A stretch of DNA of 25,300 bases from a virus. Every line of letters starts with the position of its first letter. Position 1 is the stretch's first letter. The notes below the pieces were generated by a model. That model worked only from the letters and a program-made list of their open reading frames with translations, was not told where the DNA came from and searched no databases. The DNA lies in the IMG/VR virus record IMGVR_UViG_3300023109_000125, positions 1 through 25,300 of that record, one strand, 5' to 3'. The position numbers and the translations under genes are program-made. Of this stretch, positions 1,579-15,256 are shown in pieces.

Positions 1579-2127
1579 ATGAACGAGAACTATAAAGAGA
1601 ACGACAAGGGACTCCCTTACGCCGATTGGAGCGATTTCACCGATTCCACTTGGGAATGCATCAGAGACGACTACGAAGCACACAATTGCTCAATTCAGGA
1701 TGTGGCAGACAACTGGAACATCCCAGCTCCAATTCTTAAAGGCAGAATCAAAAATAACAAATGGCTCACCACCACAAAGGCAAGACAACTAGAAGAACAC
1801 CTAGAAAACAATCCTCTAGAATGTAAAAAACTCTCTTCTCATAGAAATAAAGCTCATCAAGAACTTACACCAGCCGAGAAACTAGTAGTCAAAAAAGCCA
1901 AATCCACTATCGACTACCAATCAGATATCCTCGACATCACACTCAACGCTCTAGCCGAACTAAAGGCAGATGGTGGACTCAAAATTAAGTCGGCTTTCGA
2001 CCTAGAGAAGATAGACGCAGTAGCCAGAAGAACACTCAACCTAGATGACGATCAATCCAAAAATCAAATCATAGACACAAACTTCACTTCAGCTAAACAT
2101 AAACCAGTGATAATCGATGTTGATTAA
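1579..2127 (+). CDS. Probable terminase small subunit
   Basis: The 182-residue product has the size and layout of a phage small terminase, the DNA-recognition subunit that selects phage DNA and hands it to the large terminase for packaging into proheads. Residues of about 36-62 look like a helix-turn-helix (CSIQDVADNWNIP, then a basic helix with KGRIKNNKW), as in families that use a resolvase-like or homeodomain-like fold. A basic stretch follows at about 90-115. The C-terminal third has the pattern of an oligomerisation helix and then LNLDDD, recalling the RxLGLDDD-type ending of many small terminases. No Shine-Dalgarno sequence precedes the ATG. Unusually, the large subunit is about 4.4 kb away, beyond a block of opposite-strand genes. 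The assignment rests on motif pattern, size and the presence of a large terminase nearby; another DNA-binding protein is the alternative. Confidence 0.6.
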   Translation: MNENYKENDKGLPYADWSDFTDSTWECIRDDYEAHNCSIQDVADNWNIPAPILKGRIKNNKWLTTTKARQLEEHLENNPLECKKLSSHRNKAHQELTPAEKLVVKKAKSTIDYQSDILDITLNALAELKADGGLKIKSAFDLEKIDAVARRTLNLDDDQSKNQIIDTNFTSAKHKPVIIDVD

Positions 2128-2174
2128 TTAATCAATTTACAAAATACAAGGGAGCGAAGCGACATATTCGACAA

Positions 2175-2251
2175 ATATCTCAATCAGAAGTCTCATGTTA
2201 AGACTCATATACAAGTCTCAATGAGAAGACTCAATTAGAAGACTCAGTGAC
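2175..2251. repeat. Iteron-like array: six octamers at 12-13 bp spacing
   Basis: Octamers of the form AAG(A/T)CTCA begin at 2188, 2200, 2213, 2226 and 2239, and a degenerate copy ATATCTCA begins at 2175. The steps between starts are 13, 12, 13, 13 and 13 bp. The spacers also share an AATnAG tendency, so the whole unit is about 13 bp. The array starts about 50 bp after the terminase small subunit stop codon and is not coding in any credible frame. Regular short direct repeats of this kind are typical of protein-binding arrays such as replication iterons or terminase recognition sites. The binding protein is unknown. Confidence 0.75.
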
Positions 2252-2263
2252 ATCACCATTCAT

Positions 2264-2316
2264 ATAAGTAATACTTACATAAGTTATAACTCATAAGTTT
2301 ACTTACATAAGTTATA
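2264..2316. repeat. AT-rich overlapping dyads with a 16-bp direct repeat
   Basis: A 16-bp sequence, ACTTACATAAGTTATA, occurs at 2273-2288 and again at 2301-2316. Interleaved with it are the dyads AAGTA-A-TACTT (2266-2276), AGTTATAACT (2282-2291, a perfect palindrome) and TAAGT-TT-ACTTA (2294-2305). The stretch is strongly AT-rich and follows directly on the octamer array. Iterons beside an AT-rich, easily melted segment is the arrangement seen at many iteron-controlled origins, but no test of that is possible here. Confidence 0.65.
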
Positions 2317-2720
2317 CCTTACTTCGCAGCTCAGTCGCTCTCTCCGTTCACTCCTTCGCTACGCTTAGCCTATTCCCGACCCACCACTCGTGTAAAGATC
2401 TTTATTTCAAATACCTCTCTAACGCCCTAATACCAACACTTCTAGACTATACTTTTTTTTAAGCAGTTAGACTCTTTCTGTTAGCATTATCGACTATATT
2501 GCAGTTTGACTCATTCCATATACTCCAAATTTACCCAAATTCCCCAAAATATACAGCTCCAACCACTCCCCGCAATACCCATATTATACCACTCAACACT
2601 CACTCCCATACACCCTTTTTCCTGCTGAGGACTCAATATCCACAAAGAAACCAAGATTTACTCACTTTGCTCATTGTTTTGAGTTGCTCCCGATGCTTGT
2701 GAATGTCGAATCAGGTAACC
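2317..2720. other. Gene-free region with a G-depleted plus strand
   Basis: No convincing gene is present. Visible items are a 12-bp palindrome TAAAGATCTTTA (2393-2404), a run of eight T near 2453-2460, and a near-repeat of GCAGTTAGACTC (2463-2474) as GCAGTTTGACTC (2501-2512). From about 2400 to 2640 the plus strand has almost no G: in 2521-2640 I counted 46 C and 6 G. The only longer frame here (67 residues from 2499) is low-complexity and simply reflects this composition. The leftward operon ends at 2721, and I see no clear intrinsic terminator after it. Confidence 0.6.
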
Positions 2721-3134
2721 TCAATAAACAGAGGGGATCTCGTGCTCGTGCTCCTCTTTTTCGTCGATGTAGTCAGCGATGATGCGCATCTCCTCTGCTG
2801 ATATGCTGTATGCTCCTATGGTGGAGAACATGAATCCTCCTCCGAAAACAGGCTCTAAGCATTTGTAGTATTTGCTTATTACCCGTTGCCTGTGCTCGTC
2901 AGGCATGTTGTTGACATGCTCGTTGGGCTCAGAGTAATCTTCAAGCTCTTTACTGAAGCGTTCCTGCTCGCTCTCAGTAAGCGGCTCAGGGAAGTGCTCA
3001 GGTGGTTTATTATGCTCTAGTCGTGCTTCAGCGCTCCTTGCTCGCTCCCGCCAGTATTTCACGTCGATGTAGGACTGCTCCTCAAGTGCTCTCAGTTTTA
3101 GCGTGAGGCTCGCTATTTTTTGTTTTTTGCTCAT
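2721..3134 (-). CDS. Hypothetical protein, last gene of the leftward cluster
   Basis: This is a 137-residue protein of no recognised family. Residues of about 1-45 are Lys/Arg/Glu-rich and helical with a coiled-coil look (MSKKQKIASLTLKLRALEEQ, then further heptad-like Leu and Ala). A proline- and acid-rich linker (about 42-75) separates this from a C-terminal part with GGGFMFSTIGAYSISAEE and an acidic His-rich tail (EKEEHEHE). There is no signal peptide or membrane segment. The ATG at 3134 follows the previous gene after an 11-nt gap, so co-translation in one operon is likely. The GGGF...ISAEEM segment could be a small folded domain, but I cannot name it. Confidence 0.7.
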   Translation of the reverse strand: MSKKQKIASLTLKLRALEEQSYIDVKYWRERARSAEARLEHNKPPEHFPEPLTESEQERFSKELEDYSEPNEHVNNMPDEHRQRVISKYYKCLEPVFGGGFMFSTIGAYSISAEEMRIIADYIDEKEEHEHEIPSVY

Positions 3135-3145
3135 GGTGATATTAA

Positions 3146-3412
3146 TTATAGTTCTCCGTTAATGATTGCTGCGTAGTCGTCTGCCCATGGATCAGGGTAG
3201 CAGTCTTCCCATGACGGCTCATAATCCCTGCGTGCAGCGTCACGCTCGTTTTCCTGCTCAGCCATCTTGGAATGGCCCAGCAAGATTTGTGCTTCCTCCC
3301 TGATGCTCTCAGGGGTGCCTTGGTAGTAATACTCAATAAACCCTGAGGCGTCTTGAGTGGTGTTACAGCAGCTCAGTGCGTCGTCTGCTATTTGTTGTGG
3401 TGTCTTGCTCAT
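3146..3412 (-). CDS. Hypothetical small acidic protein
   Basis: This 88-residue protein is not recognised. It begins MSKTPQQIADDALSCC, with an adjacent Cys pair at about 14-15, then Tyr-rich and Glu-rich helical sequence. It ends with an acidic, aromatic segment (SWEDCYPDPWADDYAA). A second frame starting at 3336 is internal and is a shadow. The leader is CA-rich (CCAACCAACTAATACC before the ATG), with no Shine-Dalgarno sequence. Upstream lies the large dyad at 3430-3490; downstream the next gene starts 11 nt after the stop. The acidic pI and small size fit an early phage protein acting by binding a host protein, but that is conjecture. Confidence 0.7.
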   Translation of the reverse strand: MSKTPQQIADDALSCCNTTQDASGFIEYYYQGTPESIREEAQILLGHSKMAEQENERDAARRDYEPSWEDCYPDPWADDYAAIINGEL

Positions 3413-3429
3413 GGTATTAGTTGGTTGGT

Positions 3430-3490
3430 GGCTAAAGAAGCTCCAGAACGCTGTGGGGGCGCTCCAGAGCTTCCCTGCGGCTTCTTAGCC
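3430..3490. other. 61-bp nested inverted repeat between two leftward genes
   Basis: Outer arms GGCTAAAGAAGC (3430-3441) and GCTTCTTAGCC (3480-3490) are complementary apart from one bulged A. An alternative inner pairing joins GAAGCTC (3437-3443) to GAGCTTC (near 3467-3473) with extra pairs toward the loop. On the minus strand the inner hairpin is followed by CTTTAG rather than a long T run. It overlaps the last codons of the gene ending at 3485 and precedes the gene starting at 3412. It could be a weak terminator, a processing site or a translation-control element. Confidence 0.6.
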
Positions 3491-3856
3491 AAAGCATACG
3501 ATGGAGAACGGCACGGTGTAACCCTTGGTAGCAGGGCTTCCAAACTCCACCTTGCTCCCATTAGGAGAGGTGGCGCGGTTCTTCCAAGGTGCGATGAGAC
3601 GCTCATGGATGAGGTCCGCTGCGGCAGCCCTGTAGCCTTTGGAGCCATTGGGGGCTTTGCGCTTGGAAGCGCGGAGATGGTTGATTTGAGTCAACCTGAT
3701 GCTCTCAGATAGAGAGCTGTCTACCTTGAAGTAGTAATACTTGAAGTAGATTTGAATCTGAACCTCGCCAGCTTTCACTGGACGCTTTGCTTCAGGTTTA
3801 GATGCACGGGCGGCTTTGGCTCCTTGGTTATCGGTGGCCTTTGTTTTTGCACTCAC
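3485..3856 (-). CDS. Hypothetical basic protein with a Lys/Ala-rich N-terminus, GTG start
   Basis: This is a 123-residue basic protein of no recognised family. The first 28 residues are Lys/Ala/Thr-rich and probably disordered, suited to nucleic-acid contact. A compact segment follows with an aromatic strand (QIQIYFKYYYFKV), a helix with SIRLTQINHLRASKRK, and another helix ending in IHERLIAPWKNR. The start codon is GTG at 3856: an in-frame stop lies just upstream and no ATG precedes the conserved-looking sequence. The stop overlaps the outer arm of the dyad at 3430-3490. The gene sits in a series of small same-strand genes, with a 78-nt hairpin-containing gap before it. A DNA- or RNA-binding role is plausible from charge alone. 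Confidence 0.6.
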   Translation of the reverse strand: MSAKTKATDNQGAKAARASKPEAKRPVKAGEVQIQIYFKYYYFKVDSSLSESIRLTQINHLRASKRKAPNGSKGYRAAAADLIHERLIAPWKNRATSPNGSKVEFGSPATKGYTVPFSIVCFG

Positions 3857-3870
3857 AATATCAGTGGTGT

Positions 3871-3920
3871 TCTGTCATTGGAATTAACGACAGACTTCAG
3901 CCCTCCCCTCGTGAGGAGAG
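3871..3920. other. Two intergenic hairpins upstream of the gene at 3856
   Basis: TCTGTC (3871-3876) and GACAGA (3889-3894) form a 6-bp stem around a 12-nt loop. Next to it, 3903-3920 forms CTC-C-CCTC / GAGG-A-GAG with a two-base loop and one mismatch. Neither is followed by a T run on the minus strand. The 6-bp/12-nt geometry is the same as in the repeated stop-proximal hairpins at 4848 and 5465, although the sequence differs. Confidence 0.5.
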
Positions 3921-3934
3921 CTGTAGGTCTATGG

Positions 3935-4204
3935 TTACAAGTTGGCGTGGAGATACTGAGCCGTTTTGCTATACTTCACCACGAAGCCGTGGGAGCATAA
4001 GCATCCGCAGCAGTCGTGTTCATGAAAGCAACGATCAACCTTCACCTTGAGGTGAGTGTTTCCATCTTGGTCGATAAGTTCACTCTCGATGTTGTGCTTT
4101 TGCTTAATCTCGGCAATCACCTCAGCTTCAGTGCCAAGGTTCTTGAAGAAAAAAGCGGCGGTTCCGTATTCGGTGTCTTGACCGATTGGTTCTAGCGTTT
4201 TCAT
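3935..4204 (-). CDS. Hypothetical protein with a Cys/His cluster
   Basis: This 89-residue protein carries eight Cys/His within 14 residues (C59, H61, H63, C65, C66, C68, C70, H72; sequence CFHEHDCCGCLCSH). Such density suggests metal binding, probably zinc, or a redox-active cluster. The N-terminal part looks like a small alpha/beta unit (FFFKNLGTEAEVIAEIKQKH) and strands with LKVKV precede the cluster. A HDCC-type motif also occurs in short uncharacterised phage proteins, as I recall. The ATG at 4204 lies 4 nt after the preceding stop, so the two are translationally linked. No catalytic assignment is possible. Confidence 0.75.
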   Translation of the reverse strand: MKTLEPIGQDTEYGTAAFFFKNLGTEAEVIAEIKQKHNIESELIDQDGNTHLKVKVDRCFHEHDCCGCLCSHGFVVKYSKTAQYLHANL

Positions 4205-4208
4205 TGGT

Positions 4209-4460
4209 TTAGTGGTTGTGACGCTCGTAGTGAGCGTCGTTATACATTATCTCCTCGTCGGAGAGTGGTGTGTTCTTCATGGGGATGAACTCATTGTTTG
4301 AGTCCAATAGTTTCCTGAGTCTATCCTGCCCCTCAATGGAGAGGCGGGACATTACCGAGGAGAGAGGATCACCGAAGTTCTCCTCAATGACGCTGTCATC
4401 CTTTTTGGTAGGATTCCAGCTTTGGTCTATGAGCTTTTCCAGCTCGTTTGGGTTTGTCAT
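4209..4460 (-). CDS. Hypothetical small acidic protein
   Basis: This 83-residue protein starts MTNPNELEKLIDQSWNPT. The ATG at 4460 was chosen over an upstream in-frame ATG at 4541 because that extension would lie inside the preceding gene. With this start the ATGA overlaps the preceding stop by 4 nt, the usual sign of translational coupling. The product is acidic and mainly helical (SVMSRLSIEGQDRLRKLLDS), ending in a His-rich tail (YERHNH). The family is not recognised. Confidence 0.7.
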   Translation of the reverse strand: MTNPNELEKLIDQSWNPTKKDDSVIEENFGDPLSSVMSRLSIEGQDRLRKLLDSNNEFIPMKNTPLSDEEIMYNDAHYERHNH

Positions 4461-4672
4461 TGGTTTGTTTGGTTGGTTGGGATGTAACGCTCCCAGAACG
4501 TGTTCAGTGGGACTTTGAAGGTAACACTGTATGCTGCCCACAAGCGCACATGCGTTCTATTAAAATCAAGGACTTTTAGGCGTTGCCGTGTCCTTAGATT
4601 GATCACCCATCCTGAGACAGGTGTGCTAGGGCTGTCATCAGCCTTAGCAATTAGTTCGTCTAGGTTACTCAT
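4457..4672 (-). CDS. Hypothetical protein
   Basis: This 71-residue protein begins MSNLDELIAKADDSPSTP. The body (VSGWVINLRTRQRLKVLDFN, then HVRLWAAYSVTFKVPL) looks like a small beta-rich fold of about 45 residues. The family is not recognised. It overlaps the upstream membrane peptide gene by 8 nt and the downstream gene by 4 nt (ATGA), so the three genes 4838 to 4209 form a tightly coupled unit. The leader before the ATG lies wholly inside the upstream gene and contains AAAGGA about 12 nt before it, a possible weak ribosome site. Confidence 0.7.
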   Translation of the reverse strand: MSNLDELIAKADDSPSTPVSGWVINLRTRQRLKVLDFNRTHVRLWAAYSVTFKVPLNTFWERYIPTNQTNQ

Positions 4673-4838
4673 CTGAGTATCCTTTCATAGTGCCGTAGCA
4701 CCTGTAATAAGAGCCCCTGTCACGGAGCTCTTTTTGTTGCTCTTGATTAGCTTCTAAGCCGTCAAGAGCCTTGCCTATGAAGGTTGTTAATAACCCTAGT
4801 GTGGCGAGCACTAGAGCAACCTTTATTGTGTTTTTCAT
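4665..4838 (-). CDS. Small single-span membrane peptide (57 residues)
   Basis: A short ATG frame at 4838 encodes 57 residues. Residues of about 4-24 are a hydrophobic helix (TIKVALVLATLGLLTTFIGK) preceded by Met-Lys-Asn, which fits an N-in or signal-anchor membrane segment. The rest is polar: a helical EANQEQQKELRDRG stretch and a Tyr/Cys-containing end (SYYRCYGTMKGY). There is no signal-peptidase motif of the usual AxA type. The gene fills an otherwise empty gap exactly, overlaps the next gene by 8 nt and follows the repeated hairpin at 4848-4876 by about 10 nt, so it is very probably real. Small phage membrane peptides include holins, superinfection-exclusion factors and spanin-like proteins. 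Nothing here decides among them, and no lysis gene is adjacent. Confidence 0.65.
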   Translation of the reverse strand: MKNTIKVALVLATLGLLTTFIGKALDGLEANQEQQKELRDRGSYYRCYGTMKGYSDE

Positions 4839-4847
4839 GATAGAATA

Positions 4848-4876
4848 TGAGCAGTTTAGACACTTGCTCAGGTGTG
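4848..4876 (-). repeat. Stop-proximal hairpin repeat, copy A
   Basis: A 29-nt sequence begins 6 nt after the stop codon of the gene ending at 4883 (minus strand). Arms TGAGCA and TGCTCA form a 6-bp stem around an 11-nt loop. It matches copy B at 5465-5494 almost base for base, including the loop, apart from one or two bases. There is no downstream T run, so it is not a standard intrinsic terminator. It also lies in the leader of the membrane peptide gene. Confidence 0.75.
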
Positions 4877-4882
4877 TTGTAA

Positions 4883-5314
4883 TTAAGCTTTAGCGATCAG
4901 AGCTTTAGCCTCTTCAAGCGATATACTAATCTCTCGACCAGATCGGGTGATTTGGTCTTCATTCATGTCCTGCCCCCGATGGGACAGAAACGAGAGGAGG
5001 AATGCCTCCTCTTTTAAGGTGAAAGTGTAAGCTTCCCACACTGATGCGATCTCACTCTCCTCCTTTCTCTGGAGGGTTTTATATCTAGCTGTTGACGAAT
5101 CCATAATCTCTCCGTCATCTACACGCTCCGAGACTCTCCTTGCCCTATCTTCATAAAAGCTGTGAATATGATTCCCTTCTCTCCCTAACTGATCAGCCGT
5201 GAGCTTCATCTTGTTGTAAATAGCCTCTAGGCTATCCCACACAGCCTCCCACTTAGCAGGAGTCTCATTTAGGGCGTCAAGGATCATTTCTGCGTTTTCT
5301 TTGTATGTGTTCAT
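4883..5314 (-). CDS. Hypothetical helical protein
   Basis: This 143-residue protein is almost entirely charged helix: MNTYKENAEMILDALNETPA, then AVWDSLEAIYNKMKLTADQL, a His-containing basic middle (HIHSFYEDRARRVSERV) and a C-terminal segment ISISLEEAKALIAKA. The pattern suggests an all-alpha or coiled-coil fold; no family was recognised. There is no membrane segment or Cys cluster. The ATG at 5314 follows an unusually structured 185-nt intergenic region, and the stop is followed 6 nt later by the repeated hairpin. This may therefore be a separately controlled transcription or processing unit within the cluster. Confidence 0.75.
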   Translation of the reverse strand: MNTYKENAEMILDALNETPAKWEAVWDSLEAIYNKMKLTADQLGREGNHIHSFYEDRARRVSERVDDGEIMDSSTARYKTLQRKEESEIASVWEAYTFTLKEEAFLLSFLSHRGQDMNEDQITRSGREISISLEEAKALIAKA

Positions 5315-5347
5315 AATAGTAAGTAGACATTATGGTTTCTGAACCCC

Positions 5348-5453
5348 TTAGCTAAACTGTAGCTGGAACAGGACAATTTACGTGCATTGCACAGATATGT
5401 AGTAGTCTTCTACATTACAATCGAACTCCGATTGATGGCATTCTAGAACGCCA
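5348..5453. other. Dyad-dense intergenic segment
   Basis: Within about 105 bp lie TTAGCTAA (5348-5355), GTGCA-T-TGCAC (5382-5392), TGTAG-N7-CTACA (5398-5414), AATCG-N5-CGATT (5419-5433) and an 18-bp near-palindrome TGGC-A-TTCTAGAA-C-GCCA (5436-5453). All are non-overlapping and back to back, and the hairpin repeat at 5465 follows. No frame longer than a few codons crosses it. This could be a structured leader RNA, a small RNA, an operator cluster or an origin element. Confidence 0.6.
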
Positions 5454-5464
5454 GAAGGAGAAGG

Positions 5465-5494
5465 TGAGCAGTTTAGACACTATGCTCAGGTGTG
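5465..5494 (-). repeat. Stop-proximal hairpin repeat, copy B
   Basis: This is a second copy of the 4848-4876 element, lying 5 nt after the stop of the gene ending at 5500. TGAGCA (5465-5470) pairs with TGCTCA (5483-5488) around a 12-nt loop. The loop bases are conserved with copy A except for one inserted base. It is followed on the minus strand by a pyrimidine-rich stretch (CCTTCTCCTTCT) rather than by a T run. Confidence 0.75.
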
Positions 5495-5499
5495 ATTGT

Positions 5500-5739
5500 T
5501 TACTTGAGGCTGTCTTCAAGAAAACAGATTTCTGCCTCCTTGTTGTTCAGCCACATCTGGTGGAACTCGGACCATCCTCCTGTGAGGATGACCAGCTCCT
5601 TATTCACCTCTACCGAGGTGAGCCCTGCCTCAATAGTGAGGCGTTGTAGGAGCTTTAGCTCCTGATATTTCACCACCTCAAGCTTGAGGGTGGCGATCTC
5701 CATTTGGGTCTTTACGACCTCTTTGTCATACGTTTTCAT
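5500..5739 (-). CDS. Hypothetical small coiled-coil protein
   Basis: This 79-residue protein starts MKTYDKEVVKTQMEIATLKL. Residues of about 5-40 have heptad-like spacing of Leu, Ile and Val among Lys and Glu, which fits a coiled coil. The second half has GGWSEFHQMWLNNKEAE and ends in an acidic helix. The ATG at 5739 was preferred to an in-frame ATG at 5778 because the latter falls inside the conserved leader repeat. With 5739 the repeat-to-start distance (17 nt) matches that of the gene at 6154 (18 nt). It is flanked by the leader hairpin upstream and the stop-proximal hairpin downstream. The family is not recognised. Confidence 0.7.
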   Translation of the reverse strand: MKTYDKEVVKTQMEIATLKLEVVKYQELKLLQRLTIEAGLTSVEVNKELVILTGGWSEFHQMWLNNKEAEICFLEDSLK

Positions 5740-5756
5740 ATGTATTATGGTGTTGT

Positions 5757-5813
5757 GGTTAATGTATGTGAACAGCAAGAGCGCTGATACATACAGAGCT
5801 GTTTAATACAATG
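5757..5813 (-). promoter_or_regulatory. Conserved leader hairpin repeat, copy 1
   Basis: A 57-nt element ends 17 nt before the ATG at 5739. Paired arms are TGTATGT (5763-5769) with ACATACA (5789-5795), and inside them CAGC (5773-5776) with GCTG (5783-5786), closing a 6-nt loop. Copy 2 at 6173-6229 has the same two stems and internal loop but a different apical loop. It could be an RNA hairpin in the 5' leader or a DNA operator/promoter module; no clear -10/-35 pair is visible. Confidence 0.75.
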
Positions 5814-5902
5814 AGACATCCACTCTGCATTTACACGGGCTTGTGACCGTCATAGGCTGCATTAGATGGCATGTTGGTGTCGCAGTCATGCTCTGCGGTT
5901 GG

Positions 5903-6154
5903 CTATGCAAGCAGCAAGTCCATCTCCTTGGTTAACTCAAGGAGTAATGCTTTAGCGGCTTCATGCTCCCTTATATGGGCGTCACGTAAGGCATCAAGAC
6001 GAGCTAAATTCATTACACCATTAGGCAAGCGTGGTGTGCTGCCTACATCCATGATGTATCGGCTACCTATCTTAGAGATCATTGATCTCACTGAGTCAGC
6101 CTGTTCGATTAGCTGCCTGCTTCTTATGTGCTTATGCATTGCTGGGTTGTTCAT
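5903..6154 (-). CDS. Hypothetical protein, first gene of the leftward cluster
   Basis: This 83-residue protein starts MNNPAMHKHIRSRQLIEQAD at the ATG at 6154. A longer reading from 6280 would run through the leader repeat and a CA microsatellite and has an implausible Cys-rich start, so I reject it. The body is helical (SVRSMISKIGSRYIMDVG) and the C-terminus is a Leu/Glu-rich amphipathic helix (EHEAAKALLLELTKEMDLLL) that could mediate dimerisation. A GSTPRLPNGVM loop lies in the middle. The family is not recognised. The leader is CA-rich (CCAACAACCAATACAATACA). As the promoter-proximal gene of the operon it is likely to be expressed early. Confidence 0.7.
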   Translation of the reverse strand: MNNPAMHKHIRSRQLIEQADSVRSMISKIGSRYIMDVGSTPRLPNGVMNLARLDALRDAHIREHEAAKALLLELTKEMDLLLA

Positions 6155-6172
6155 TGTATTGTATTGGTTGTT

Positions 6173-6229
6173 GGTTAATGTATGTGAACAGCAAGGATAG
6201 CTGATACATACAGAGCTATGAATACAATG
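6173..6229 (-). promoter_or_regulatory. Conserved leader hairpin repeat, copy 2
   Basis: This is the second 57-nt copy, ending 18 nt before the ATG at 6154. Arms TGTATGT (6179-6185) and ACATACA (6206-6212), then CAGC (6189-6192) and GCTG (6200-6203), enclose a 7-nt loop whose sequence differs from copy 1. Identity to copy 1 is high outside the loop. The element precedes the first gene of the leftward cluster. Confidence 0.75.
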
Positions 6230-6296
6230 GACAGACAGAGGACAGGCAAGCAGACAACAGCACACACACAGACAGCACACACAGACAGCGTAGAGA
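6230..6296. repeat. CA/GACAG simple-sequence tract
   Basis: A low-complexity run of ACAGACAG, CACACACA and related units lies just upstream (minus sense) of the leader repeat. It is purine/C-biased on the plus strand with almost no T. It may have arisen by slippage. No gene function is implied, and it inflates a spurious longer reading of the gene at 5903-6154. Confidence 0.7.
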
Positions 6297-6546
6297 ACTG
6301 AAGGGGCGGCGGGTGTCTTGCTTGGGGGACATCCTACACCGAGCTACCATGAACCTACTATGGAACTATGTGGGTTTTTATTTTGCCAAAGCGACTTTGT
6401 GGAAAAGAGTGTGGGGGGAAATGTGTGAGAGGGTTTGTTTTGGGATGAAAAATAAAATTCATGTATATAAAGGCGGTTTATTTTGTGTTGTTTAGAAATC
6501 GCAAAAAAAAATCGTTCCCTGAAGGGAATTGTGGTAGGGGTTGTTT
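6297..6546. promoter_or_regulatory. Control region upstream of the large terminase gene
   Basis: This gene-free stretch (apart from a doubtful 60-codon GTG frame) should carry the rightward promoter. The best candidate is TTGGGA (6440-6445) and TATATA (6464-6469) with an 18-bp spacer, a poor -35 with a fair -10. From about 6400 the plus strand becomes strongly G/T-rich. AGGGG at 6536-6540 with a 6-nt gap is a plausible ribosome site for the ATG at 6547. Confidence 0.4.
6502..6528 (-). terminator. Candidate leftward intrinsic terminator before the large terminase gene
   Basis: On the minus strand the palindrome TTCCCT-TC-AGGGAA (6515-6528) is followed after three bases (CGA) by nine T residues (plus-strand A run at 6502-6511). 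This is the hairpin-plus-U-tract form of an intrinsic terminator, though with a short stem. It would stop antisense transcripts coming back across the large terminase gene before they enter the leftward operon. Confidence 0.5.
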
Positions 6547-8472
6547 ATGAGTAATTTGAATGCTGGTAAGGGCGTGGCTGGTTTGTATGAGTGGGAGAGT
6601 TCTTATTTTCCTGTTCCTGATGGTGTTATGGTGGATGAGTTTCATATGGAGTGGGAGGGGAAGTTGTGGGATGTGCGTATTTTTGGGGAGATGGAGAGGA
6701 ATTTGTATATGTTGGCGATGGCGTATTTTGATGAGGGGGAGGGTGGGAAGTTGCTTTTGAAGCCTGAGTATGATGATAGTAAGGGGGGTAGTTGGCCTAG
6801 TGGTGAGGAGTTGTTTGTTTATTTTAAGAGGGTGGTGGATTTGTTGTGGAATGAGAATGGGAAGAGCACGAGGAAGGTTATATGGAATGAGTGGTGTGAG
6901 AGGATGATGGTGGGGATGTTGGGGAATAGGTATTGTGCTTTGGCTGGGTGTGCGTCTTCTGGGAAGAGTGATGCGATGGCTGTTTATGCTATAGTGATGT
7001 ATTTGTGTTGGCCTCAGAAGACGAAGGTTATTGCCACCTCTACGACTATGAAGATGGCTAAGATGCGTATATGGAGGAGTGTGAATGAGTTGTGGCAGAA
7101 GGATTTTCCCGGAAAGATGGTTTATAGTGACTGTGTTATTAAAGGGGTTAATATGGATGGGGACTTAACTGAGGACACTGGGGTGTTGTTGATGCCTGCT
7201 GCTGGTGGTGCTGGTCAGGAGATTGACAGTAACTTTTTGGGTTTGAAGCAGGAGAGGTTTTTTACGATGTTGGATGAGCTTTCTGAGTTGCCTGTGAGTG
7301 TGGTTAATGGTTGTTATAGTAACCTTAGTAATAATACGTGGTTTGAGATGAAGGCGGCTAGTAACCCCAATAGTTATCATGATGCGTTTGGTGTGTTTTG
7401 TAAGCCTATGAATGGTTGGGCTAGTGTGAGTGAGCTTAACATGGAGTGGGAGACATCTAGGGGTATTTGTTTAAGGTTTGATAGTGAGAAGAGTCCTAAT
7501 ATGAAGGCGGGGAGGGTGATATACCCTTGGTTGCCTAAAGAGAGGGATATTAATCATGCTCGGCGTGAGTTTGGTGAGAGGAGTAGGTATTTCTTTCGGA
7601 TGTATAAGGCTTTTTGGTTTTCTGGGAGTAGTGATGAGACTGTGTTTAATGAGGGTGAAGTAATGAAGGGCAGGGCTGACACGCCTGTTGACAAGAGCGA
7701 GATAGACAAGGGGAGTAGAGAGGAGTTGGTTTTGGCTGGTGATCCTGCTTTCACTCAGGGAGGAGACAGGTTTCCTTTGATTAAAGGCCGTGTTGTTAAG
7801 ATTGATGGTAAGAGCGTTTTGGAGGTTACGGATCTGGATATTATAAAAGACGATATTGATAATGAGGATGTGAGCAGGAGTTATAGCTCTATTCGATACA
7901 TTCGTGAGCGTTGTGTTAAGGAGGGTATTCCAGCTAGTCATTTTGCGTTTGATATGACTGGGGCGGGTATTCCTTTTAGGGACATTGTTGTGAGTGAATG
8001 GAGTAGTTTGCCTATGGGGGTTATGTTTGGGGGGAAGGCTAGTGAGCTTCCTATTAGTCCTATTGATCCTAGACTTGCCAGCGAGGTTTATGCTAATAGG
8101 GTTACTGAGTTGTGGGCTAGGTGTAAGGGGTTGATACGTGAAGGAAGGATTAGGGGTCTTACGAGTGAGATTGTTCAGGAGCTTTGTCAAAGGCAGTGGG
8201 ATGAGATGCGGGGGGCTAAATTAAAAGTCGAGAGCAAGAAGTTGATGAAGCTGAGGACGGGTAAGAGCCCCGACATTGCTGACACTTTAATTATTTTGGT
8301 TGAGCTTTGCGTTAAGCTTGGATTGCTTGGAGAGATGGAAAACGTTGATGTTGACGAGTCTTCTAAGGAGGTCTGGTCGAAGTCATATGAGTCTATTGAC
8401 AGTGATGCTTGGGACGATACAGGTCTTTCTTGGGGAGGCGGTGGTGGAGGCGATATGGATTTAGAGTGGTAG
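6547..8472 (+). CDS. Terminase large subunit (packaging ATPase and nuclease)
   Basis: This 641-residue motor protein drives DNA into the prohead and cuts the concatemer. The N-terminal ATPase domain has a Walker A motif at about 134-141 (GCASSGKS), followed by a coupling-type segment, and a Walker B motif at about 238-244 (FFTMLDE) with the catalytic Glu. The C-terminal RNase H-like nuclease domain begins with LVLAGDPAFTQGGD, continues with a FAFDMTGAG strand and ends with SPDIADTL, supplying the usual acidic metal ligands. The tail is Gly- and acid-rich (GGGGGGDMDLEW). I start at the ATG at 6547, with AGGGG 6 nt upstream, rather than at an in-frame TTG two codons earlier. Codon use is extreme: TTG for Leu, AGG for Arg, and third positions that avoid C. 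In 6541-6660 I counted 44 G and 9 C, unlike the genes downstream. Confidence 0.93.
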   Translation: MSNLNAGKGVAGLYEWESSYFPVPDGVMVDEFHMEWEGKLWDVRIFGEMERNLYMLAMAYFDEGEGGKLLLKPEYDDSKGGSWPSGEELFVYFKRVVDLLWNENGKSTRKVIWNEWCERMMVGMLGNRYCALAGCASSGKSDAMAVYAIVMYLCWPQKTKVIATSTTMKMAKMRIWRSVNELWQKDFPGKMVYSDCVIKGVNMDGDLTEDTGVLLMPAAGGAGQEIDSNFLGLKQERFFTMLDELSELPVSVVNGCYSNLSNNTWFEMKAASNPNSYHDAFGVFCKPMNGWASVSELNMEWETSRGICLRFDSEKSPNMKAGRVIYPWLPKERDINHARREFGERSRYFFRMYKAFWFSGSSDETVFNEGEVMKGRADTPVDKSEIDKGSREELVLAGDPAFTQGGDRFPLIKGRVVKIDGKSVLEVTDLDIIKDDIDNEDVSRSYSSIRYIRERCVKEGIPASHFAFDMTGAGIPFRDIVVSEWSSLPMGVMFGGKASELPISPIDPRLASEVYANRVTELWARCKGLIREGRIRGLTSEIVQELCQRQWDEMRGAKLKVESKKLMKLRTGKSPDIADTLIILVELCVKLGLLGEMENVDVDESSKEVWSKSYESIDSDAWDDTGLSWGGGGGGDMDLEW

Positions 8473-8514
8473 ATTTTATTGACATCTTTGTTTTTAGTAT
8501 GTAGGAGGAGTCAT

Positions 8515-9624
8515 ATGGACATAGTTACAATTTACGCGCAACCAGATATTGACAACCCTTTAAAGGCTTTTGAGGGGTTAATGAAGAGCTTTAAAAAGTA
8601 TGGATTTAGGTCTTGTGATAAATTGAAATTGGTTGTTCCTAATGGCAGTAGAGAGAAGCTGGCTAAGTTTAGTTACTTGCTGGATTTGATTGGTGAGGGT
8701 CATGAGTTGATCCCTATAATGTATCCTACGCTTCGTTCTGATCGCATTAGTTTTTCAGCTTATCATAATAATATATTATGTAGGGCTGTTCGTTCAATTA
8801 AAGGTCAAGGTCGTTTTGTTTATATTCCTTTTGGTTGTGAGCCATTAGAGAAGGGATGGGGTAAAACCGTCGAGACAGTAGCAACGATGCATTCAGAAAA
8901 GAGTTTTATTGGAGAGACTAGACAGAATAGTGACGGTTATGATTATTTAAGTGGCGTTTGTGTCTTGGATTACTCTTTCTTTTCTGAAGGGGTGGTATTT
9001 CAGGCTGTTAACGCTAAATGCTATCCTTTTTCTCGCGCCGCTCGCTCGTATAAGGGGGATTTGCTTAGCTACCCACTTCCTTTTAGTGATTTGGATTTTG
9101 GTGATGAAAAAGAGTTTATGTCTAAAATCACTAAGGGTTTAGCCACCCACAAAGAGAAAAAGGCAGAAAAACACATCAAAGATGTTCCTGATGAGGTTTC
9201 TGATGAGACTGAAGAGAAATTAGCTGAATTTGTTGCTCCTGAGGTTATTCCTGAGCCTGAAGTTATTCCAGATGTGCTTGGTGAGCTCTCAAAATCTATT
9301 TCAGAGACAAAAGAAGAGTCTATTTCAAAGAAAACTGTTGAAAAATTGCCAAATGATGATCTTTTGATGGAAGAATTTAGCAAATTGCATCATTTAACAT
9401 TTATTAAGCTTCACGGAAAGGAACTTTACGATAAACTGAAGAAGAAAAAGAAAGCTTCTTCTAAAAAGGCAAAAAAGAAAACAGCAAAGAAAGCCAAGAA
9501 GAAAGCCTCTAAAAAGACAGCTATTAGCCGTGAGGCGAAAAAGCAATCAGATAAGTCTACTTCTAAAGCTTACGGAATTAACGCCAAAGCTAAAGATGTT
9601 GATCGTATAGACCACAGCGTTTAA
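8515..9624 (+). CDS. Protein with possible glycosyltransferase-like domain and histone-like Lys-rich tail
   Basis: The 369-residue product starts at the ATG at 8515, which has a textbook AGGAGG (8503-8508) six bases upstream; a TTG at 8479 is less likely. Residues 1-210 look like one folded domain. The pattern FGCEPLEKGW (106-115), then FIGET (131-135), then YLSGV (144-148) recalls GT-A-like phage proteins that carry an EPD-x-VPL-x-x-GW motif. Here the acidic metal-binding position appears to be Gly/Cys, so the domain may be non-catalytic. Residues of about 220-300 are an acidic, Pro/Glu-rich linker. Residues 307-343 are a Lys/Ala/Ser run (KKKKKASSKKAKKKTAKKAK) like histone H1 tails, which should bind DNA or RNA. 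Its place between terminase and portal suggests a late or virion role. Assignment of the fold is tentative. Confidence 0.8.
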   Translation: MDIVTIYAQPDIDNPLKAFEGLMKSFKKYGFRSCDKLKLVVPNGSREKLAKFSYLLDLIGEGHELIPIMYPTLRSDRISFSAYHNNILCRAVRSIKGQGRFVYIPFGCEPLEKGWGKTVETVATMHSEKSFIGETRQNSDGYDYLSGVCVLDYSFFSEGVVFQAVNAKCYPFSRAARSYKGDLLSYPLPFSDLDFGDEKEFMSKITKGLATHKEKKAEKHIKDVPDEVSDETEEKLAEFVAPEVIPEPEVIPDVLGELSKSISETKEESISKKTVEKLPNDDLLMEEFSKLHHLTFIKLHGKELYDKLKKKKKASSKKAKKKTAKKAKKKASKKTAISREAKKQSDKSTSKAYGINAKAKDVDRIDHSV

Positions 9625-9641
9625 TTTAAATCTAAAATATT

Positions 9642-11990
9642 ATGAAAGATACAGAAGAGGTTGGTGATGTTGAGTTTCAAGAAAAAGGAGAGCGCCTAAA
9701 GAGCGTAGACCAAGCTAGGGCAATTGTTAATCGTTTAGCTGAAGATGATCGGCCATCTGAGCGAAACAGGGCGAAGGTTCAAGATTTGCATGACTTTAAA
9801 CCTCCTCTTAACAGCGCTATGCTTTCCCGTAGCGGTCAAAAGGGTCGCTTTAATATCAACTTTGGTGATTTAGCTCGTGCCGTTGGTGAGGCAGAGACTT
9901 CTTTTATTGATGGTTTTGAAAGCCCTGAACATCTTGTTCCCATTAAACTGAATCGCGGGTCATACGCCCCTGAGGAAAAACAGCAGTTTGAGCGCATTAT
10001 GTCTGATGAGTTTACTAAGCTGATCAGAAGTTGGGACGGCGGTTTCTTTAATTACGGTCTATTGGTTAATCAATTTCTGCTTCAAGGGGTGGGCATTGGT
10101 TTTTTTGAGGACAAATATACATGGCAATGGCAAGGCGCTGGTCTTCGTGAGTTTAAGTTTCCTCGAAAAACAAAGGCTCATTGTGATTCAGTTGAGATGA
10201 CATCTTGTGATGGTCAGATTGGCAGATCTAGACTTGCTGACATTCTTGAAAACGAGCAGGCTGCAGTAGACATGGGTTGGAATCCAAGTGCTATAAGGGC
10301 TGCCTTGAAGGGCGGGTATGAAGACCAGCTTTATGAAGACGACAACGCTGAGGATTCTCAAGAGAAAAGCAAAGCGAACGACTTGGATGACGAGGCTGGT
10401 AGCTTTCATCCCATTAACGTAAGTTATATGTGGGTGAGGGAGAATGACGGCACGGTTAGCTATTATATTTTTACGAAGAACTCTAAATCTAATGATTTTG
10501 AAGATTCTGATGCTGGATCTGGTGATGGGTTTCTTTATAAGAGATTGAATGCTTATGATAACATTGGTCAGGCTTTACAGATATTTCCTTACAATACAGG
10601 CACTAAAGGTAACATCTACACTATTAGAGCTATAGGTTTTCAGCTTTACCCTCAGGTTATGGCTAAGAACTTGATGCAGAGTGCTGAGCTTGATGCTTCT
10701 ATTGATGGAATGAGGACTAAATATCGCGCTCCTTCTGAGAAAGAGATTAATTCGATGCCTTTCTTGAATGCTGGCCCTGCACAGTTTGTTCCTAATCAGT
10801 ATATTGCCATTAAGGATCAGCACACTCCAGATTTAACTAAGATTGCATCACCAGTCATTGATCGTTTAGATATGCAATTAGCGGCTAAGAGCGCATCTAG
10901 CTCTATGTCTAGCGTGTTTAATAATAAGCAAGACAGACGATCAAGCTTGGAGGTTGGAAGCGCTCTTGAGCATTTCAACAGCCTTAATGATGGTGCTCGG
11001 TTGTTATTTTCACGACCTTGGCGATCATTGATGTCTGAGAGTTGCGTAAGAGCTTTTGCTGAGATTATTGACGAAACAACCGATTGTGGGCGAATGGCTA
11101 TGGTCATGCAGAAAGCCTGCATTGATCAAGGTGTCCCCGCTGAGGCTTTTGGCATGATAGACAGACATGAAACCAGAACCAGCATTCCTGTTGGCGCTGG
11201 CAGTAAAGCTGCTCGTAGTGCTGAGTTTGAGTCTGGAGCAACCCTTTATCAGGAGATGGATGATGTTGGTCGCGCCAACTTTAATAAGGACAGGGCAATA
11301 CACGGGTTTGGCGTTCAAAACGCTAAGCGTTACTTAAACTTTGAAGATCGTCCTCGTGAGATTATTGATGTGAGGTTTGCTATTCTTGAGAATAACGACC
11401 TAATGGAGGGAACATGGATTGAGCCTAGCAATAGTGAAGTTCACATTGTCCACCTTAGAGAACACATTAAGCCTATGGAGGAAGCTATTCAGGCTGTCGA
11501 AGAGGGTCAATTAGAACTTATTGACTTTACTAATAGGATGGAGGTTGTTTATGAACACGCCGTTGCGACCATTAAACTTACCGCTGTTCCCGATGAGCAG
11601 AATGATGAACTTAATATGTATGAACAAAAGATTCAGCAGATTGGTGAATACCTCAATAACGGCATCAGGGAGCGAGAGAAGATGCAGCGTGAGCAAGCTG
11701 AACAAGAAGCTCAGATGCAAGCTCAAGGCGCTCAGGAGGGAGCTGGTGATCCAGCAGCGGAGGCTAAAGCACAAGTTGAGCAGATGAAGTTGCAAGTGAA
11801 GGAGGCTGAGGCACAGATTGCCATTGAGCGCAAGCAGACAGAGAACATGCTGGATGCTGAGAAGAAGTCTCGTGAGATTGCTCACATTGACATGCTTCAT
11901 AAGCAGAAGTTGATTCAGAATCAGGAAGAGAGCCTGCAGAAGATGAAGTTGGCTGATGCTGATACGGCGAGCAAGATCAAGAGAAGCTAA
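9642..11990 (+). CDS. Portal protein (head-tail connector)
   Basis: This 782-residue protein follows the terminase and precedes the scaffold and capsid genes, the standard portal position. It would form the dodecameric ring at one capsid vertex through which DNA enters. The length suits the large portals of podovirus-type phages. The N-terminal portion has a globular alpha/beta region with GGFFNYGLLVNQFLLQGVGI (about 130), typical of the portal wing/clip core. The part from about 350 to 560 is rich in helices and SSSMSSVFNNKQDRRSS-type linkers. From about 655 to the end the protein is a continuous Gln/Glu/Ala/Lys coiled coil (EREKMQREQAEQEAQMQAQ and onward), matching the C-terminal barrel or crown helix of portals such as that of P22. 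The ATG is preceded by TAAAATATT, without a Shine-Dalgarno sequence. Assignment rests on synteny, size and the coiled-coil end; I could not recognise a named portal family. Confidence 0.8.
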   Translation: MKDTEEVGDVEFQEKGERLKSVDQARAIVNRLAEDDRPSERNRAKVQDLHDFKPPLNSAMLSRSGQKGRFNINFGDLARAVGEAETSFIDGFESPEHLVPIKLNRGSYAPEEKQQFERIMSDEFTKLIRSWDGGFFNYGLLVNQFLLQGVGIGFFEDKYTWQWQGAGLREFKFPRKTKAHCDSVEMTSCDGQIGRSRLADILENEQAAVDMGWNPSAIRAALKGGYEDQLYEDDNAEDSQEKSKANDLDDEAGSFHPINVSYMWVRENDGTVSYYIFTKNSKSNDFEDSDAGSGDGFLYKRLNAYDNIGQALQIFPYNTGTKGNIYTIRAIGFQLYPQVMAKNLMQSAELDASIDGMRTKYRAPSEKEINSMPFLNAGPAQFVPNQYIAIKDQHTPDLTKIASPVIDRLDMQLAAKSASSSMSSVFNNKQDRRSSLEVGSALEHFNSLNDGARLLFSRPWRSLMSESCVRAFAEIIDETTDCGRMAMVMQKACIDQGVPAEAFGMIDRHETRTSIPVGAGSKAARSAEFESGATLYQEMDDVGRANFNKDRAIHGFGVQNAKRYLNFEDRPREIIDVRFAILENNDLMEGTWIEPSNSEVHIVHLREHIKPMEEAIQAVEEGQLELIDFTNRMEVVYEHAVATIKLTAVPDEQNDELNMYEQKIQQIGEYLNNGIREREKMQREQAEQEAQMQAQGAQEGAGDPAAEAKAQVEQMKLQVKEAEAQIAIERKQTENMLDAEKKSREIAHIDMLHKQKLIQNQEESLQKMKLADADTASKIKRS

Positions 11991-11993
11991 TTT

Positions 11994-12281
11994 ATGAACA
12001 AAGACAAAGAACAACTAGATAGCCTGATTCATTCTTTTAAAGAGCTTGAATTAAATCCTGCATATATTTATATGCTAAATCGTTTTAATGATTCATGTTT
12101 AATGAACCTTGATGACGATTTGCAGAGCAAAGCCGAGCGTTACATTGCAGAAAGTGCAGTGAAAAGCTTCATTCGTGATATTAAGATGTTCTCCAATGGC
12201 TTGCCCGATGAGGAGATTGATGAAGACTTGATGCTTGAGGATGAAGTCTATGTTGCATCTTATAACGGGATTTTAGATTAA
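11994..12281 (+). CDS. Hypothetical small acidic protein between portal and scaffold
   Basis: This 95-residue, strongly acidic, helical protein (LDSLIHSFKELELNPAYIYM, then a LPDEEIDEDLMLEDE stretch) starts 3 nt after the portal stop. It is therefore translated with the portal. The family is not recognised. Its place between portal and scaffold fits a small head-assembly or packaging-adaptor protein, but there is no motif to confirm this. Confidence 0.75.
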   Translation: MNKDKEQLDSLIHSFKELELNPAYIYMLNRFNDSCLMNLDDDLQSKAERYIAESAVKSFIRDIKMFSNGLPDEEIDEDLMLEDEVYVASYNGILD

Positions 12282-12303
12282 ATCATTAAAATAAACAAAC
12301 GAT

Positions 12304-13599
12304 ATGGAAAACGAAGAAATAACGACAGGAGAAGAAGCTATGTCTGACCAGAGTGACCGAATTGGCGATTTTTTCGCCAACGAGGGCAACCCTGCTGGAG
12401 TTGAGGCTGATTCTGAAGGACAAGGTGAACCACAGGAATCAAATAGTGATTCTGGTGGTATGGATGAGCCTTTTTTGGCTAACGATCCAGATTACGACCC
12501 AGACGAGCTGTATGATCCAGATAATGAGCCAGAACCTGAAAAGGAACCAGAGCCAGAGCCTACTCCAGAACCTGATTCTGAGGTCGCTCCAGAGGATTCA
12601 ACTGACGACACTGAAGCCTCATCCGACAAAGATGATGTTTTAGAAGAATCTTCCAATGATGATATTCTCTCTGAAATCAAAGAGCTCTATGAAAATCCTA
12701 ACCAAGGACTTAAATGGGCAGAGATCAGAGGTGAAAACAAAAGTCTCAAGGAAGAGAACGCTCAACTTAAGAGCGGTTCTATGACGACCCCCGAGATGCA
12801 GGAAATTTCAGCGAAAGCTGAAAGGGTAGCCCAAGTTGAGGTTGCTCTTAAAGAAGCTCAAGACAAACTGGCTTTATTTGACTTTCAGGCAACTCCTGAA
12901 TACAGGAATCAGATTGAGATTCCGTATCAGAATATTGCTTCAACAGCCAGCAACATTGAGGCTTCAGCCTCTATTCCAGAAGGTAGCATCTTGAAGGCTA
13001 TTTCTGCGGGTGACAAAGCCACTCAGGACGCGAACATTCAAAATCTTGTTGATAGTTATAATATTAGCCCTCGTGATGTTAATACTATTTTCAATAAAGC
13101 TGATGAGATGCTGAATTTGACTCATTTTGAGTCGAATCTTCGCTCCACTGCTCAAGAGCGACTTAGTGAGAGCAGAGCACAGCAAGAAGCTCGTGACGCT
13201 TACATGTCCGAGCAGGCGCAGAGCGTTTACAGAGATCACGTTAACAATTCTTTCTCTGAATACGAGGGTCAGATTGGGGCGTTTCTTAACGAGGATGGCA
13301 CAAATAATGAGGATTGGTCGAAAGCTATATCTGACAGCCACAATCTTGATTTTAAGAATGATCCAGAAATTCAAGGCTTAGGAGCTTTTGCTCTTACTGC
13401 CGTCCCTCATTTGATGAGACAAAACTCAGAGTTCTCTTCTGAGATAGCAAAACTTAGGGCATTGGTGAATAGGAACAAGGCGGTTTCTCCTCCATCTGTT
13501 TCTAAGACAGCAGCCTCGCCTTCAGCTTCTCCTTCATTTAATAGTAATATGAGCTTATCCGATGCTTTGGGAGAAAGAATGAAATCTATTAACATATAA
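12304..13599 (+). CDS. Capsid assembly scaffolding protein
   Basis: This 431-residue protein immediately precedes the capsid gene, apart from a terminator and leader. Residues of about 1-125 are very acidic and disordered, with Pro-Glu repeats (NEPEPEKEPEPEPTPEPDSE near 77-96). From about 130 there are charged helices (ENKSLKEENAQLKSG, then AERVAQVEVALKEAQDKLAL) with coiled-coil character. The C-terminus has a Ser/Ala/Pro-rich linker and ends in a short basic helix (SDALGERMKSINI), the region that in many scaffolds binds the capsid N-arm. Acidic N-terminus, central coiled coil and basic C-terminal helix together are typical of phage scaffolds. Scaffolds direct capsid shell assembly and leave or are digested before maturation. 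An internal ATG 12 codons in (MSDQ) is a possible alternative start. Confidence 0.82.
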   Translation: MENEEITTGEEAMSDQSDRIGDFFANEGNPAGVEADSEGQGEPQESNSDSGGMDEPFLANDPDYDPDELYDPDNEPEPEKEPEPEPTPEPDSEVAPEDSTDDTEASSDKDDVLEESSNDDILSEIKELYENPNQGLKWAEIRGENKSLKEENAQLKSGSMTTPEMQEISAKAERVAQVEVALKEAQDKLALFDFQATPEYRNQIEIPYQNIASTASNIEASASIPEGSILKAISAGDKATQDANIQNLVDSYNISPRDVNTIFNKADEMLNLTHFESNLRSTAQERLSESRAQQEARDAYMSEQAQSVYRDHVNNSFSEYEGQIGAFLNEDGTNNEDWSKAISDSHNLDFKNDPEIQGLGAFALTAVPHLMRQNSEFSSEIAKLRALVNRNKAVSPPSVSKTAASPSASPSFNSNMSLSDALGERMKSINI

Positions 13600-13639
13600 T
13601 TTCCTATGTGGGGAACATGACAGTTAACGCTGTTGTGTA

Positions 13640-13692
13640 AGCCCTGCCCTCTTTTTTGTTCATTTTGTGGGGGCAGGGCTTTATTTTTTTTT
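13640..13692 (+). terminator. Rho-independent terminator after the scaffold gene
   Basis: AGCCCTGCCC (13640-13649) and GGGCAGGGCT (13671-13680) form a perfect 10-bp GC-rich stem around a 21-nt loop, followed by TTATTTTTTTTT. This separates the packaging/scaffold transcript from the capsid gene, which has its own promoter downstream. Confidence 0.9.
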
Positions 13693-13713
13693 AAAGGAAC
13701 ATTAAAAAAGATG

Positions 13714-13742
13714 TTGACTATGTATGTCAATATATGTTAATC
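13714..13742 (+). promoter_or_regulatory. Candidate capsid promoter overlapped by a dyad
   Basis: TTGACT (13714-13719) is a near-consensus -35 element; at 17 bp spacing lies TTAATC (13737-13742), a weak -10. The -35 is also the left arm of TTGAC-N7-GTCAA (13714-13730), an operator-like inverted repeat. It lies between a strong terminator and a long leader, which is where a capsid promoter is needed. Confidence 0.5.
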
Positions 13743-13807
13743 GTTTTGCGAGCTTAAGAAAACAGCTACTAAATTAGTCTTCCGTATTGCTTGGTTACGT
13801 CACACCT

Positions 13808-13876
13808 CTCTAAAGAATCTTTATGATTCACTATGAACAATTCGTCTCTTCGTATTGTAAAATTCATGCTTTAGAG
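13808..13876 (+). promoter_or_regulatory. Possible three-way-junction structure in the capsid mRNA leader
   Basis: CTCTAAAG (13808-13815) is complementary to CTTTAGAG (13869-13876). Inside lie GAATC-TTTAT-GATTC, whose first G is also the last base of the outer arm, and ACAAT-N12-ATTGT. Together they could form a three-way junction about 30 nt upstream of the capsid ATG. It does not meet tRNA rules (no T-arm, wrong arm sizes). Thermodynamic support was not computed. Confidence 0.4.
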
Positions 13877-13906
13877 GCAAAAACTAACTTATAACAAACT
13901 AATACT

Positions 13907-15172: not shown

Positions 15173-15181
15173 CCCTTAACT

Positions 15182-15240
15182 CAACAAGCCCTCTTTTATC
15201 CTTGTGGTAGGAGGGGGTTTGTTGTTCTTTTTCAAATTTT
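15182..15240 (+). terminator. Terminator after the capsid gene
   Basis: AACAAGCCCTC (near 15183-15193) pairs imperfectly with GAGGGGGTTTGTT (near 15211-15223), followed by GTTCTTTTT and then a T-rich stretch. G-U pairs and a bulge are needed, so it may be leaky. Confidence 0.7.
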
Positions 15241-15256
15241 TTAAAACACTTTTATT

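Follow-up and report, generated by a model that had tools for sequence, protein, structure and literature searches.

The question raised by this locus is why two small phage genes with dissimilar products are preceded by the same sequence, and what that sequence may do. The window analysed is the entire 25,300-base virus record IMGVR_UViG_3300023109_000125, a length which does not imply a complete genome; the source phage is a poorly known bacterial virus. Based on the analysis below, the shared sequence, here called H1, is probably, though by no means certainly, an RNA leader belonging to an operon of small genes that is read leftward; it has been moved by recombination and has a twister ribozyme cutting upstream of one of its copies (copy A).

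The original prediction described two hairpins with identical stems and with loops of 6 and 7 nt, placed 17 and 18 nt before two ATGs, and this is what the window contains. The element was given there as 57 nt long; it is indeed present twice, but the true repeat is longer. Copy A (5735-5818, minus strand) runs through the start codon of a 79-aa ORF and copy B (6150-6233, minus strand) through that of an 83-aa ORF. Each is 84 nt long, includes ATGAA and ends just past the start codon, whereas the 57-nt blocks stop 17 nt (copy A, ATG at 5739) and 18 nt (copy B, ATG at 6154) short of it. The hairpin of copy A (5763-5795, minus strand) consists of a 7-bp outer stem (5795-5789/5769-5763, TGTATGT/ACATACA), a 2/3-nt internal loop, a 4-bp inner stem (5786-5783/5776-5773, CAGC/GCTG) and a 6-nt loop (5782-5777). 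The hairpin of copy B (6179-6212, minus strand) has the same stems (outer 6212-6206/6185-6179, inner 6203-6200/6192-6189) and a loop of 7 nt (6199-6193). Both are predicted to adopt the same fold at -12.0 kcal/mol, with z values of -2.31 (copy A) and -2.72 (copy B).

The two copies find each other in a BLAST self-comparison with 85% identity over 87 columns (E 4e-15). The differences between them occupy 13 columns, none of which is found within the 27 columns of the stems and internal loop (hypergeometric p = 0.005). A chance origin of the repeat was therefore rejected, on the basis of both the BLAST match and the stem-avoiding differences. Because the stems are identical, they offer no covariation between copies A and B. 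Two further readings were also rejected: an intrinsic terminator, as neither hairpin has a T run after it, and a coding sequence or upstream ORF, as the frames through the hairpin differ between the copies by 1-nt indels. No tRNA was found.

Concerning the downstream genes, the 79-aa ORF (5500-5739, minus strand) lies behind copy A and the 83-aa ORF (5903-6154, minus strand, stop at 5905-5903) behind copy B. Their products give no BLASTP alignment with each other at E <= 100, no match in Pfam or PHROGs, and no relative in IMG/VR. When 2.9 million IMG/VR contigs were scanned with the exact 27-base hairpin pattern, the sole matching contig was IMGVR_UViG_3300021957_000115 (L001); a loosened 20-base pattern and a 21-base pattern of the 3' part led to L001 again and to no second contig. 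The whole contig (38,096 nt) holds one copy of H1 and is 99% identical to the window across 6150-15675 (BLAST; ~9.5 kb). Its H1 copy precedes a third ORF, unrelated to the 79-aa and 83-aa ORFs, and is a mosaic, with the loop of A (GCTCTT) and the downstream leader of B. The repeat thus stands before three different genes, and the earlier claim that what is conserved is the element itself, rather than a duplicated gene, is upheld, both by the two products that do not align and by the third copy before a third unrelated gene.

The relatives supply this one further copy, in a close relative, and none other in the wider scans, which settles in part whether relatives carry additional copies. With the terminase or the protein at 13907-15172 as the IMG/VR query, no relative besides the L001 contig was found, and the terminase query gave no match in INPHARED. 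In the GTDB genomes, the loosened hairpin pattern gave a single match, in Hoylesella, without the flanking leader; it was set aside as a host-borne H1, since the flanks are absent and a few such matches are estimated by chance. Some other features of these phages were also noted. A TGTCTG/TGTG-rich stretch (6234-6305, minus strand) lies directly upstream of copy B and is conserved in L001. A terminator-like hairpin (TTCCC/GGGAA) with a run of nine Ts (6515-6528, minus strand) is located just upstream of the terminase start, towards copy B. In a related phage, a 251-aa ORF (L008:6009-6764) is built from a 4-residue repeat with a 12-nt period.

A conserved stem with a free loop had been proposed to be either an RNA structure or an operator read by one phage regulator. 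As DNA, H1 would be an operator or a phage-specific promoter, a protein-bound inverted repeat from which each copy starts the transcription of its gene. Such a role agrees with the perfect conservation of the inverted repeat and with the fact that a gene begins after each copy, and copy A contains the sigma-70-like site that scores best in the region (TTCACA-17-CATAAT, 10/12; 5772-5744, minus strand). Copy B, however, is without that site, and the region 2100-6700 contains 8 sigma-70-like sites against 6.6 expected. The spacing of the half-sites also varies, with a loop of 6 nt in one copy and 7 nt in the other. Because such a change of loop length would shift the half-sites of a rigid operator, an RNA structure appears to fit better than a DNA operator, so that of the two original alternatives the first is retained and the second disfavoured. 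The reading by one phage regulator is not supported. The larger proteins that were tested include neither a recognisable phage RNA polymerase nor a regulator. We therefore regard the operator or promoter as unlikely.

As an RNA leader, H1 is predicted to fold not only into its hairpin but also into a helix at the start codon. In the predicted folds of all three leaders, the 5' edge of H1 (CATTGTATT) forms base pairs with the sequence around the start codon (AATACA..ATG). The CA-rich gap before each ATG, previously taken to be unstructured, is instead the predicted partner of the 5' edge of the same repeat. The 5' arm of copy A (5804-5814, minus strand) would pair with 5747-5741 and 5739-5736, and that of copy B (6221-6229, minus strand) with 6160-6152; the start codon is covered in both cases. 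When folding is started at the beginning of the repeat, the ATG is predicted to be paired with a probability of 0.87-1.0 in each of the three leaders. The complementarity of the arms is matched by 5 of 2000 shuffles for copy B and 2 of 2000 for L001, which is unusual for these two leaders, themselves not independent, and by 97 of 2000 for copy A, which is marginal. Pairing of a start codon is not rare as such: a mean of at least 0.87 is found at 7 of the 71 ORF starts of the window and the L001 contig, a set which takes in copy A and the genes common to both records and omits the leaders of copy B and L001, displaced by overlapping ORFs. Of the two 96-nt pieces, the one containing copy B is predicted to fold better than its shuffled versions (z -2.61), and the one containing copy A is not (z 0.34). 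All these folding predictions ignore pseudoknots.

A comparable arrangement is found in the leader of T4 gene e (lysozyme), for which the available text of PMC3014915 describes a start codon in an RNA helix with the 5' arm upstream. For H1, pairing of the start codon with an upstream 5' arm is predicted in all three leaders, at a level that 7 of 71 ORF starts of these genomes also reach. H1 differs from the T4 leader in that no late promoter, of the kind that would yield transcripts lacking the arm, was found inside the H1 arm. No Shine-Dalgarno-like sequence is present in front of the ATGs of copies A and B, and opening of the helix at the ATG may therefore matter. Many gene starts (window 2721-6154 and the ORFs of L001) are without a Shine-Dalgarno sequence and have A- and C-rich leaders, e.g. 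ACCAACTAATACC before the ATG, which suggests non-Shine-Dalgarno initiation in the host. The H1 leader may exert translational control.

The sequence directly upstream of copy A matches the twister ribozyme of Rfam (RF03160; 5817-5868, minus strand), of type P1 and without P3, with the predicted cleavage between U5864 and A5863. It is 52 nt long and overlaps the beginning of repeat A by two bases at its 3' end; the 83-aa ORF terminates before it, and the leader of the 79-aa ORF follows. The match scores 59.9 bits (E 1.7e-12 in a piece of 1961 bases, E 5.4e-11 in the 63 kb of the window and both halves of the L001 contig) and is the sole Rfam match at E <= 0.05 in the window and both contig halves; the other matches in the 1961-base piece are two weak snoRNA ones (E 0.3 and 0.8). 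The Rfam gathering cut-off of 67.2 is a curation threshold and not a matter of anatomy; the twister lies below it, and a scan of the window at gathering level gives no match.

The required stems of the twister are all present and formed by Watson–Crick pairs only: P1 CAUC/GAUG (4 pairs), P2 UGCA/UGCA (4) and P4 ACG/CGU (3). P3 is optional and is found in 78% of annotated twisters, according to the available text of PMC6154101 and PMC5408937. Both pseudoknots are also present, T1 as CAC/GUG (3 pairs) and T2 as GC/GC; T1, which joins loops L4 and L1, departs from the Rfam consensus CCC/GGG by a compensatory change. The adenosine after the cleavage site and the conserved L1 and L4 residues (UAA, CAAGCC, UAAA and GAG) are found as well. 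A strict twister descriptor has one match in the window, none in the L001 contig and none in 10.1 Mb of shuffled window. The stretch therefore shares with RF03160 its three stems, both pseudoknots, the L1 and L4 residues and, as predicted here, the U-A cleavage step; it differs in its score below the cut-off and in being joined to a duplicated leader repeat. The anatomy is strong evidence that 5868-5817 is a twister, whose self-cleavage is predicted. In the L001 contig, neither the Rfam scan nor the strict descriptor finds a twister, and since H1 is present there, the ribozyme is not needed for H1. Upstream of the ribozyme and after the stop codon of the 83-aa ORF lies a hairpin (CGCAG/CTGCG; 5881-5897, minus strand) with -6.6 kcal/mol and z -2.14.

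The early genes of T7 are separated by hairpins, and H1 might be a comparable processing or stability hairpin, e.g. a site for RNase III or an element that stabilises the 5' end. Its position between genes resembles that of such elements, as does its architecture, in which an asymmetric internal loop separates two short helices, but it has 11 base pairs in all and a twister is already located just upstream of copy A; we consider this role highly unlikely, and continue with the reading of H1 as an RNA leader.

Twisters are found at the same kind of place in other phages. A blastn search with the 52 nt against INPHARED (50,697 records) matched 8 records, of which five were examined, the remaining three all being Prochlorococcus phages; the Prochlorococcus phage matches fall within a peptidase gene and were rejected as twisters. 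Rfam twisters were present in three of the five examined records: two in MT835475.1 (54.4 and 61.1 bits), one in MT835795.1 (60.0) and one in the crAss-like cr113_1 (42.8). All four, at 42.8-61.1 bits, are also below the gathering cut-off. Two further twister queries against INPHARED again ranked MT835475.1 and MT835795.1 at the top. In these two gut phages, each of the three twisters occupies the gap between two consecutive small ORFs, after the stop of the first and before the start of the second; that of cr113_1 is found within a longer intergenic stretch. The hairpins directly before the three twisters have energies of -12.6 to -13.5 kcal/mol, and the equivalent in the window is weaker (-6.6). 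The window twister is thus similar to those of MT835475.1 and MT835795.1 in being intergenic, behind a hairpin and before a small gene, and in its T1 of CAC/GUG; the genes of those phages, however, have Shine-Dalgarno-like sequences after the ribozyme, whereas here the H1 leader follows and has none. MT835475.1, which is Mu-like, encodes a transposition protein (PHROG 296, E 4e-44); the proteins of the window phage that were scanned gave no sign of a transposition gene.

Taken together, the five phage twisters (the window, two in MT835475.1, and one each in MT835795.1 and cr113_1) pair in 94.7% of 75 cells, and 7 of the 15 pairs change on both sides, a result matched by none of 500 shuffles. 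In the pseudoknots all cells (100%) are paired across the five, with one both-side change, in T1. The twisters of MT835475.1 are in tandem (L011:1497-1548 and 1909-1967), each before a small gene, and the second precedes an ORF for a MazE-like antitoxin. A twister-like remnant or variant, which gives no Rfam report at E 0.01, is located ~35 nt before a small gene in the Bacteroides phage C3_41T2LP (L014:1480-1525). Of the five examined records, the two without Rfam twisters are that of a Prochlorococcus phage and the Bacteroides phage record OR296439.1, which has a partial twister-like stretch.

How the same leader may have come to precede different genes is suggested by the comparison of the two records. 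The 99% identity of the window and the L001 contig ends at 6150, next to the start codon behind copy B, and resumes at 4885, next to a second repeat (H2). The original prediction included neither H2 nor the twister nor the arms that would pair with the start codon. The window has one H2 copy after the 79-aa ORF (5459-5499, minus strand; hairpin TGAGCA/TGCTCA; 90% match to 4842-4880, E 6e-7) and another before a 57-aa ORF (4842-4880, minus strand; BLAST match and fold), which forms the right-hand boundary with L001. The H2 hairpins are small and are found after the stop codons of the preceding small genes; the L001 contig has one copy (14492-14526). Between the boundaries, the window contains ORFs of 83, 79 and 143 aa, and the contig a single short ORF, of 50 aa when counted from the ATG that follows the leader. 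Based on the breakpoints at 6150 and 4885, the changed segment is therefore bounded by the repeats H1 and H2, in this one pair of genomes. Another segment present in the window and absent from the contig (3936-4478, minus strand) contains small ORFs of 89 and 83 aa, with no flanking repeat seen.

These breakpoints at H1 and H2, as well as the A/B mosaic in L001, would also be expected if H1 were a mere patch of homology, shared through recombination between small-gene cassettes and without a regulatory role. Pure homology does not require, however, that the stems be free of the differences found between A and B, and we consider it quite improbable that H1 is homology alone. A similar setting is that of the promoter early stem-loops (PeSL) of T4-like phages, intergenic stem-loops at which gene cassettes are exchanged, as described in the available text of PMC4503421. 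H1 shares with them a stem-loop at the boundaries of shuffled cassettes (6150 and 4885, one genome pair); it differs in that it includes the start codon and belongs to an unrelated phage. With respect to an early promoter, as in a PeSL, H1 shows a sigma-70-like site in one of the two copies (A), and such sites occur in the region about as often as expected by chance.

The mechanism which we propose for the RNA leader is as follows. H1 would be the 5' leader of RNAs transcribed leftward from an operon of small phage genes, and recombination at the repeats would have placed it and its start codon before various small ORFs; H1 may also serve as the homology for this cassette exchange, for which the evidence is the single genome pair. 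A transcript reading through the 83-aa gene and across the region would cleave itself in the cell between U5864 and A5863, a step for which the anatomy is strong. The upstream mRNA would then end behind the small hairpin, and the downstream mRNA would carry the ribozyme body at its 5' end and, after it, the H1 leader that precedes the 79-aa gene. Based on the folding predictions, the constant H1 hairpin would place the 5' arm (CATTGTATT) against the bases around the start codon, and initiation would probably be damped unless this helix is opened or absent.

The twister and the leader could also form one switch, in which cleavage removes the partner strand of P1, so that the remaining ribozyme body is free to compete against the helix at the start codon of copy A and the 79-aa gene is turned on. 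The predicted folds point in this direction. The predicted pairing of the ATG bases of copy A is 0.85-0.96 with the uncut ribozyme and 0.73-0.79 after cleavage, when the ribozyme body competes. We regard this switch as very doubtful.

The ribozyme belongs to a known class and is located at a known kind of place, and the individual is new. No description of a duplicated phage leader with a twister attached to it was found in the literature searched, which consisted mostly of papers outside subscription journals. Since the two near-identical phages differ by the ribozyme cassette and have the same leader, the effect of the ribozyme on the next gene is directly testable. Bacterial twisters are enriched near Mu-like phage genes, and the reason why they cluster near phage genes is described as unknown in the available text of PMC10085705. 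That a stop codon, a hairpin, a twister and the start of another small gene recur in this order suggests that such twisters serve to divide the transcripts of an operon by cleavage in the gaps between its small genes.
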